Positions 10,023 to 14,191 of a stretch of DNA of 25,021 nucleotides are shown piece after piece. Under the pieces are notes generated by a model. It was not told where the DNA came from and made no database searches. It worked only from the letters and a program-made list of their open reading frames with translations. The number at the start of each line of letters is the position of its first letter. Position 1 is the first letter of the stretch. Location of the stretch: NCBI GenBank assembly GCA_023132135.1, contig JAGLYR010000001.1:1-25021 (forward strand), read 5' to 3'. The DNA comes from Candidatus Eiseniibacteriota bacterium (GTDB lineage Bacteria; Arandabacterota; Arandabacteria; JAGLYR01). The position numbers and the translations under genes were made by a program.

Positions 10023-10051
10023 TTGACATCCCCAGGACCCCCAGCTATACT
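10023..10051 (+). promoter_or_regulatory. Strong sigma-70-type promoter predicting a leaderless NSS transporter mRNA
   Basis: TTGACA (10023-10028) and TATACT (10046-10051) are separated by exactly 17 nt. Transcription starting 7-8 nt after the -10 box would fall on or just before the A of ATG 10059. No ribosome-binding site lies between the -10 box and the start codon. Confidence 0.7.
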
Positions 10052-12096: not shown

Positions 12097-12492
12097 CTAG
12101 TCATCCTCTACTTTCCTCATCCTCTTTTTCTGCGAGCGGCGCGCTTTGTCCGTGAGTCGCCTCTCCTCAGCAGCCCGGGGACGGCGCGTGGGGCGCCGGG
12201 GTCTGGGGCGGTGGTTCAGCTTCTCGAGTTTGACTTTCAGTCTTTCAAATGCTGTTCGCCGATTCTGCGCCTGGGAGCGCCTCTCAGACGCGGTCACTGT
12301 GACTCCCGACGGACGATGGAAGAGCCGAACTCCGGTTTCCACCTTGTCCCGCCGTTGCCCACCGGGCCGGGACGATCGATACGTCGTGAGAACGACTGAG
12401 CGTTCCAGCGTGTACCGATCCGTCCTGTACTTCCGGGGTGTTTCTCCCGCTCCCGAAGGACGCCTGTTTGCCTCTTCTTCTTTAGCTGCCAT
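12097..12492 (-). CDS. RF-1-domain (GGQ) release-factor-like protein
   Basis: A 131-residue protein built on the RF-1 catalytic domain. The motif SSRPGGQRRDKVETGVRL (40-57) has the universal GGQ (44-46) that triggers peptidyl-tRNA hydrolysis, and VTVTASERRSQAQNR (64-78) matches the conserved region after it. There are no codon-recognition domains. The C-terminus is a long Arg/Lys/Pro-rich tail (about 93-131), as in ArfB and the mitochondrial C12orf65/MTRFR group, where the basic tail enters the empty mRNA channel of stalled ribosomes. A ribosome-rescue role is therefore likely but inferred; it could also be an RF-H-like variant. ATG 12492 has only a weak AGGG upstream. Transcription probably comes from the minus-strand promoter at 12521-12550. 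Confidence 0.85.
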   Translation of the reverse strand: MAAKEEEANRRPSGAGETPRKYRTDRYTLERSVVLTTYRSSRPGGQRRDKVETGVRLFHRPSGVTVTASERRSQAQNRRTAFERLKVKLEKLNHRPRPRRPTRRPRAAEERRLTDKARRSQKKRMRKVEDD

Positions 12493-12520
12493 TGTACCCT
12501 AACTCATTGGCATAGCATCA

Positions 12521-12550
12521 GTTAAAAAATTCCCAAGTTTCTCTTGACAA
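12521..12550 (-). promoter_or_regulatory. Possible promoter of the release-factor-like gene
   Basis: TTGTCA (12550-12545) and TTTAAC (12526-12521) on the minus strand are 18 nt apart. The -35 box overlaps the -35 box of the plus-strand promoter, because CTTGACAAG reads as a -35 box on both strands. The -10 match is moderate. Confidence 0.35.
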
Positions 12551-12572
12551 GCCATGGGGGACATGGTAGCAT
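12544..12572 (+). promoter_or_regulatory. Promoter of the candidate small RNA
   Basis: TTGACA (12544-12549) and TAGCAT (12567-12572) are spaced by 17 nt on the plus strand. No open reading frame with a ribosome-binding site follows before the terminator at 12652-12684. The predicted transcription start is near 12579. Confidence 0.55.
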
Positions 12573-12578
12573 GACTCT

Positions 12579-12684
12579 GTCCATTGTGAGAGCGCGAGCG
12601 CGTTGTCCAGGCTTTTTGATCTTTTGAGCCTGACAGCTATCTCGCCCCCCGGCAGGCGCCTTCCACCCGAAGGCGTCTGCTTTT
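12579..12684 (+). ncRNA. Candidate structured small RNA (about 106 nt)
   Basis: The unit is bounded by a good promoter and a strong intrinsic terminator in a 253-nt gap between two minus-strand genes. Inside it, TGTC-C-AGGCT (12604-12613) pairs with AGCCTGACA (12627-12635), a 9-bp stem with one bulge and a T-rich loop. A GAGAGC (12588-12593)/GCTATCTC (12636-12643) pairing could close the structure around it. It does not show the conserved apical loop of SRP RNA and is too short for tmRNA, RNase P or a typical 6S RNA, so I cannot assign a family. Start and end are predicted only. Confidence 0.5.
12652..12684 (+). terminator. Rho-independent terminator
   Basis: A 12-bp stem (12652-12663 with 12669-12680, one G-T pair) and a 5-nt loop CACCC are followed by TTTTC. 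The T-tract lies on the plus side, so it ends the plus-strand transcript and not the neighbouring minus-strand operon. Confidence 0.8.
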
Positions 12685-12745
12685 CTATGGTCTCATGGCA
12701 CCGAAATCGTGAAATGGTCCACCTTCATTACGTACACAGGGCAAA

Positions 12746-14191
12746 CTACCGCGACTCGAAAGGCTTCTCCAGGCCCACCCCTGCAATCTCCCTGGCGTTC
12801 ATGTATGTGCTGCCTGTCTCCACAGCCGACCGGTACGCCCTGAGAGCACTCTGCCGATTCCCGGCAAGATCCTCGATCCATCCGATGCGGATCCAGCTCC
12901 ACGCCACAACCCATTCCTCGTCCGGATTGACGGCAATCGCCCGGTTCAGCACTTCCAGCGCGTCATCGTAGCGTTCCTGAGTGTAGAGAAGACTCCCATA
13001 CCCATAGTTGGCCCGCGGGTTGTCGGGATCGGCTTCCAGGATCTCCCGGTACCGGATCAGGGCATCGGTAAGGCGGCCCTGTCGGCGGTCCAGATCCGCC
13101 TGGAAGATGGTCAGCCATCGCTGCCTCTCTGTCTCGCTCCCCCTCCAGCGCTCGGTTTCCTGCTTCACATGAACAGCCCCCAGAACGCGACCCACCAGTT
13201 CTGACGGGCTCCGGGCGCTGCCGAGCGCCATCTCGTGATAGAATACCCCGACCAGAATGTAGCCCCGCGCGTACAGGCGATCCAGCTCTCCCCGCACCCA
13301 CTGCTCCTCTTCCCCGCAGACCTGCAGCCAGGCCGCCCAGACCAGGCACTCCGTGACAAGATCATTGAACGCATCGCAGCACGACTCGATTCGTTCCTGA
13401 TCCCTCACCAGGTCGAAGAGATCCCGCCGGGCGCGGATTGCCAGCAGGTGTTCCTCCACAGCCTCCGCAAACACGGCCTCCAGCAGTGCCCGGATCAGGA
13501 GCGATGGGTCGGGCTCCACACCAGGTCCAATAACTACGTGTGGTTTCCCTTCGTACGAAAACCTCGAATTGCTCCAGTAGGGGGCCAGAAGGTTGATAAT
13601 GACCCGGACCCGGCTCGGTAGATTCTCTTTGCCCTCGATTCCTATTGATGCAAACGCTGTGCGCGCCTTTCGGTCGGCCACCCTTGCCAGCTCCTGCGCG
13701 ACATGTTCATACTCGGGCCGGGCGCTCTCCCAGATGGCCCCTATCTCCACCTCCCGGTAGAAAACCGAGAGAGAGGAGCTTAACCCCACTTCCCTTCCTT
13801 CCTCCACCAGCCGCCGGGTTTCCACCGAGTAAGACCCTGTGTCGGCGACATTGAATAAAGGTGGTCCCTCGCCGGCCAGGATATACCGTGATAGAGCGAA
13901 CGCCCCGCCGTGATGTCCCAACTCGTGAGCTGCATGCGCGATATTGTGTGTGGTTTCCTCCAGTCCTTCCTTCGCGGCCAGGGTCTGCCGGATGTCGGCC
14001 CTCAGCGGGTACATCCCCAGGAAGTTGGTCACCTGGTTATAGCCGCCCAAGTTCATGGCTGCGTATAGGGCAAAGATGCCCTCATCCAGGACAAAATCGA
14101 AGTACGGCGACTCCGGGGCTGTCCCGGCGGCCGGCGCCGCCGCGCCCAGGATCCAGAAACCCGCAATAGCCGCTGTGAGTACTCGCCTCAA
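12746..14191 (-). CDS. Exported protein with N-terminal HExxH and C-terminal TPR repeats
   Basis: The 481-residue product begins with a signal peptide (cut near residue 22-23). An N-terminal alpha-rich domain contains HELGHH (89-94), which fits the HExxH zinc-peptidase pattern. A central domain (about 200-320) resembles the DUF4932-type putative metallopeptidase layout, but at the place where that family has its HExxH I see VFAEAVEE, so I do not claim activity. Residues 355-470 form two to three TPR units (YREILEADPDNPRANYGYG and YDDALEVLNRAIAVNPDEE). The start is TTG 14191: it overlaps the TGA of the upstream gene (TTGA), and AAAGGAGAG lies just upstream. It is the last gene of the six-gene block. 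TPR proteins of this kind often scaffold envelope complexes; the specific role is unknown. Confidence 0.78.
   Translation of the reverse strand: MRRVLTAAIAGFWILGAAAPAAGTAPESPYFDFVLDEGIFALYAAMNLGGYNQVTNFLGMYPLRADIRQTLAAKEGLEETTHNIAHAAHELGHHGGAFALSRYILAGEGPPLFNVADTGSYSVETRRLVEEGREVGLSSSLSVFYREVEIGAIWESARPEYEHVAQELARVADRKARTAFASIGIEGKENLPSRVRVIINLLAPYWSNSRFSYEGKPHVVIGPGVEPDPSLLIRALLEAVFAEAVEEHLLAIRARRDLFDLVRDQERIESCCDAFNDLVTECLVWAAWLQVCGEEEQWVRGELDRLYARGYILVGVFYHEMALGSARSPSELVGRVLGAVHVKQETERWRGSETERQRWLTIFQADLDRRQGRLTDALIRYREILEADPDNPRANYGYGSLLYTQERYDDALEVLNRAIAVNPDEEWVVAWSWIRIGWIEDLAGNRQSALRAYRSAVETGSTYMNAREIAGVGLEKPFESR

Follow-up and report, generated by a model that had tools for sequence, protein, structure and literature searches.

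A candidate small RNA gene with its own promoter and terminator between two genes of Candidatus Eiseniibacteriota

Positions 12544–12684 of a stretch of 25,021 nucleotides from Candidatus Eiseniibacteriota (the window) probably constitute an intergenic small RNA (sRNA) gene that is transcribed on its own, is restricted to its lineage and has a product of about 106 nt. The transcription signals, their spacing, the strand, the predicted fold and the lack of a credible reading frame can be read from the sequence itself, and their interpretation as an sRNA gene, ordinary in kind, is plausible. An earlier sequence-only reading had proposed a new small RNA at this place; in view of the signals, the fold, the missing frame and the exclusion of housekeeping RNAs, an sRNA gene is indeed the best reading, but the locus remains a candidate. 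Bacteria commonly possess intergenic sRNAs, many of which are lineage-specific, and the discovery as such is therefore an ordinary one. If transcribed, the RNA would nevertheless represent an sRNA of a poorly sampled phylum (eight genomes examined) in which Hfq was undetected, and thus a test case for regulation without the usual chaperone.

The locus shows the features by which intergenic sRNA genes are recognized, namely a co-oriented promoter and terminator of its own located between genes and no protein-coding frame. In a published screen that confirmed the expression of dozens of candidate sRNA loci, the top-scoring criterion was a promoter and a terminator in the same orientation and 40–500 bp apart (PMC2573895). 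According to the model favoured here, a sigma-70-type promoter with an extended −10 region would start an RNA near position 12579, and its structured, non-coding body would be ended by an intrinsic terminator at 12684.

Promoter and terminator

The predicted elements of the locus are the following:

12544–12572, plus strand: sigma-70-type promoter TTGACA-N17-TAGCAT with an extended −10 TG, 10 of 12 consensus matches
12579–12684, plus strand: predicted transcript of about 106 nt, delimited by promoter and terminator, with its start 7 nt after the −10 hexamer
12594–12645, plus strand: internal irregular hairpin of the predicted fold, whose three helices total 17 pairs, with UUUUGAUCUUU (12615–12625) as apical loop
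12646–12650, plus strand: CCCCC linker, unpaired in the predicted fold, a possible pairing site for G-rich or Shine-Dalgarno sequences
12651–12684, plus strand: intrinsic terminator according to predicted fold and background count, a hairpin in which 13 pairs enclose the loop CACCC, followed by TTTT

The −35 hexamer TTGACA (12544–12549) and the −10 hexamer TAGCAT (12567–12572) are separated by a spacer of 17 nt, exactly as the earlier reading had it, and the extended −10 TG is an additional feature that it had missed. Both promoter and terminator were called by consensus, and 640 kb of the source genome, sampled by regions, served as background for the chance tests. Promoters with at least 10 of 12 matches occur 44 times in this sample, compared to 14–18 times per shuffle, and those that also carry the TG extension 12 times, compared to 0–3 times per shuffle. 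An inverted repeat in the promoter spacer, CCATG-N5-CATGG, was attributed to chance, as it has five copies per 640 kb, the others of which are located outside comparable promoters.

The terminator, previously described as a 12-bp hairpin with TTTT, is present; its arms (12651–12663 and 12669–12681) form 12 bp, or 13 if the closing G-U pair is counted, and the TTTT occupies 12681–12684. Hairpins of at least nine perfect pairs directly followed by TTTT are represented by about nine distinct examples in the 640 kb and by none in one first-order Markov copy, a hairpin that was reported repeatedly, in nested form or on both strands, being counted once. Within 300 nt upstream of the other eight sampled terminators, no promoter with at least 10 of 12 matches was found. 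The sampled terminators L101, L130 (15379) and L143 are located 26–57 nt past a gene end, whereas no co-directional gene precedes the candidate's terminator.

Assuming independent placement of the 12 TG-extended promoters and the nine terminators, about 0.013 co-oriented pairs no more than 150 nt apart are expected by chance per 640 kb according to our estimate (12 × 9 × 150/1.28 million), and about 0.001 if the shuffle rate of promoters is used instead. The reading as an sRNA gene is supported because promoter and terminator each exceed chance, are co-oriented and lie 78 nt apart (from the −10 hexamer to the terminator stem), and because the fold of the transcript has a z-score of −5.1. Points against it are the lack of a homologue in the genomes searched, and with it of covariation, a U tract of only four bases and a negative target scan.

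Predicted fold of the transcript

The segment 12578–12688 folds at −47.7 kcal/mol, the z-score given above being relative to shuffles. The fold alone is unconvincing, because 35 of 1246 windows of this G+C-rich contig reach an equally low energy and the value is therefore unexceptional. For the 5′ part without the terminator, an energy of −24.0 was obtained, compared to −16.3 ± 2.7 for shuffles, of which 5 of 500 were as good. This part contains the internal hairpin, which is composed of helices of 5, 6 and 6 pairs, separated by a single-nucleotide bulge and by an internal loop, and is capped by the U-rich apical loop. The stem, given as 9 bp with a T-rich loop in the earlier reading, is thus an irregular one of 17 pairs.

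Coding potential, neighbouring genes and alternative explanations

The locus is situated in a 253-bp gap (12493–12745) between two genes which are both encoded on the minus strand, so that the RNA, as had been claimed, runs opposite to its two neighbours:

12097–12492, minus strand: GGQ-containing stand-alone protein with an RF-1 domain (PF00472, E 2.5e-19), similar to ArfB/peptidyl-tRNA hydrolase and divergent from the RNA
12746–14191, minus strand: TPR-repeat protein (TPR_16, E 2.1e-12), convergent with the RNA

No ATG is present within the transcript (12579–12684), and its body contains a single closed frame, which begins with GTG at 12586, comprises 13 codons and has no ribosome-binding site, in agreement with the statement that the RNA has no coding frame. 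An antisense-toxin pair was also considered and rejected, since the opposite strand has no plausible small hydrophobic frame.

The position relative to the convergent TPR gene is relevant for a possible, though unlikely, alternative, in which the locus serves as a transcription boundary: a spurious or antisense-directed promoter on the plus strand would give rise to a functionless RNA, which is stopped before it would extend antisense into the 3′ end of the TPR gene. The terminator is indeed located about 60 bp before the stop codon of this gene, and the RNA was not found in the relatives searched; however, the fold of the 5′ part, too, is better than that of shuffles, and a promoter of this quality would be unusual as a chance occurrence. 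We consider it quite improbable that promoter-like and hairpin sequences were assembled by chance and are not transcribed at all, or that the hairpin protects the end of the minus-strand TPR messenger. These two possibilities are consistent with the missing conservation of the locus and with the fact that the hairpin folds on the minus strand, too, but on that strand it is followed by CGGGGGG instead of U, and the combination of promoter and terminator is rare compared to shuffles. A 5′ leader that attenuates a plus-strand gene by means of a riboswitch or a leader peptide, to which the order of internal hairpin and terminator and the 13-codon frame would correspond, is very improbable, as no plus-strand gene follows (the minus-strand TPR gene fills 12746–14191), the two hairpins are separate in the predicted fold with no evident anti-terminator, the short frame lacks a ribosome-binding site and no riboswitch of Rfam matched the locus.

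With respect to the sRNA gene, which remains the preferred interpretation, the neighbours are of little help for comparative purposes. The same-class matches to the RF-1 domain protein are open frames of 344–429 amino acids, which were read as likely RF1/RF2, and no stand-alone counterpart was found in the seven class relatives. For the TPR protein, no full-length relative was found and the matches were generic TPR proteins. With true orthologues of both neighbours missing from the relatives, synteny is unable to lead to a diverged copy of the RNA. The best promoter-like site of the RF-1 domain gene shares the palindromic CTTGACAAG with the −35 region of the RNA, on the other strand.

Known RNA families and conservation

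Comparison with Rfam, which had been suggested as a check of the candidate, revealed no match anywhere in the window at the Rfam thresholds; at the locus, neither gathering nor permissive thresholds gave a match, and scores were at chance level only. The exclusion of SRP RNA, tmRNA and 6S RNA in the earlier reading holds, as none of them gave a covariance match at the locus and matches to them are located elsewhere in the source genome: SRP RNA (RF00169) on contig C124 with 65.7 bits and 6S RNA (RF00013) on contig C41 with 81 bits, both over the cut-off, and the best, partial matches to tmRNA (RF00023) on other contigs. The candidate resembles 6S RNA and the bacterial small SRP RNA in being a stand-alone structured RNA gene of broadly similar size, but matches neither of them. 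6C RNA (RF01066) was rejected, as its score was 17 bits compared to a gathering threshold of 47 bits (E 5.3). In this weak alignment, a G+C-rich hairpin with a U tail comes after a C-run, whereas the first 6C hairpin is missing from the candidate.

Many bacterial sRNAs are genus-specific, and the source genome is the sole member of its family in the comparison set, in which the phylum is represented by eight genomes including seven same-class relatives. No homologue was found in these seven or in 90 more distant genomes. A BLAST search with the 151-bp locus against 98 genomes gave only short matches of 15–37 nt, which were judged to be due to chance; this applies also to the best of them (E 2.8e-4), which was found in a genome outside the class and covers 22 nt of the C-run/terminator region only. 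With a single-sequence covariance model, the best non-self match in the phylum had an E-value of 0.29, and the two top matches were dismissed as chance since they were read as coding DNA. A search of the phylum genomes with a loop pattern allowing three mismatches yielded no relative. A loop pattern gave two matches in GTDB, close to the number estimated by chance, and one in IMG/VR; their flanks contain no matching terminator and they were judged unrelated. Given the large evolutionary distances involved, the missing homologue amounts to absence of evidence and does not refute the sRNA.

Possible function of the RNA

None of the eight phylum genomes yielded a match to Hfq (PF17209), whereas five controls were detected, and regulation in trans by the RNA, if any, is therefore probably Hfq-independent. 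In such a mechanism, one of the C-rich segments (linker or terminator loop) or the apical loop with its U-rich sequence might pair with mRNAs near their ribosome-binding sites. When the unpaired segments were scanned for duplexes with 372 start regions of the source genome, they paired no better than shuffled segments beyond noise, which is a weak test since the start regions were predicted. These regions are GGAGG-rich, and start choice itself favoured such sites.

An Hfq-independent sRNA with C-rich loops, the 115-nt sX13, was described in Xanthomonas and discussed alongside RNAs with UCCC loops of Staphylococcus (PMC3771888). Like sX13, the candidate is intergenic and of similar size (about 106 nt), has stable stems downstream of an unstructured 5′ end and possesses C-rich unpaired stretches, and sX13 needs no Hfq (PMC3771888). 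The two RNAs differ in the number of hairpins (two in the candidate, three in sX13) and in the position of the main C run, which in the candidate is located in the linker rather than in a loop, its largest loop being U-rich. The likeness is one of anatomy, with no known sequence relation; C-rich unpaired segments are present in the candidate, and above-chance pairing to G-rich start regions was not observed in the scan. It is rather doubtful that the candidate represents a new lineage-specific family of regulatory RNAs which, in a phylum where Hfq was undetected, would use a C-rich or U-rich seed on mRNAs, possibly including that of the divergent ribosome-rescue-type gene.

Other transcription signals in the window and the source genome

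A near-perfect promoter, TTGACA-17-TATACT (10023–10051), is located about 7 nt before the likely ATG (10059) of a gene for a sodium:neurotransmitter symporter, and this spacing suggests a leaderless messenger. About 13–14 near-identical copies of the hairpin GGGCGACCCGGTGGGTCGCCC-TTTT occur in the source genome, its 14 pattern matches including L106:612–636, L130:15376–15400 and L143:12304–12328, and none was found in the seven class relatives; this hairpin is a lineage-specific repeated terminator-like element, some copies of which are located just past genes.
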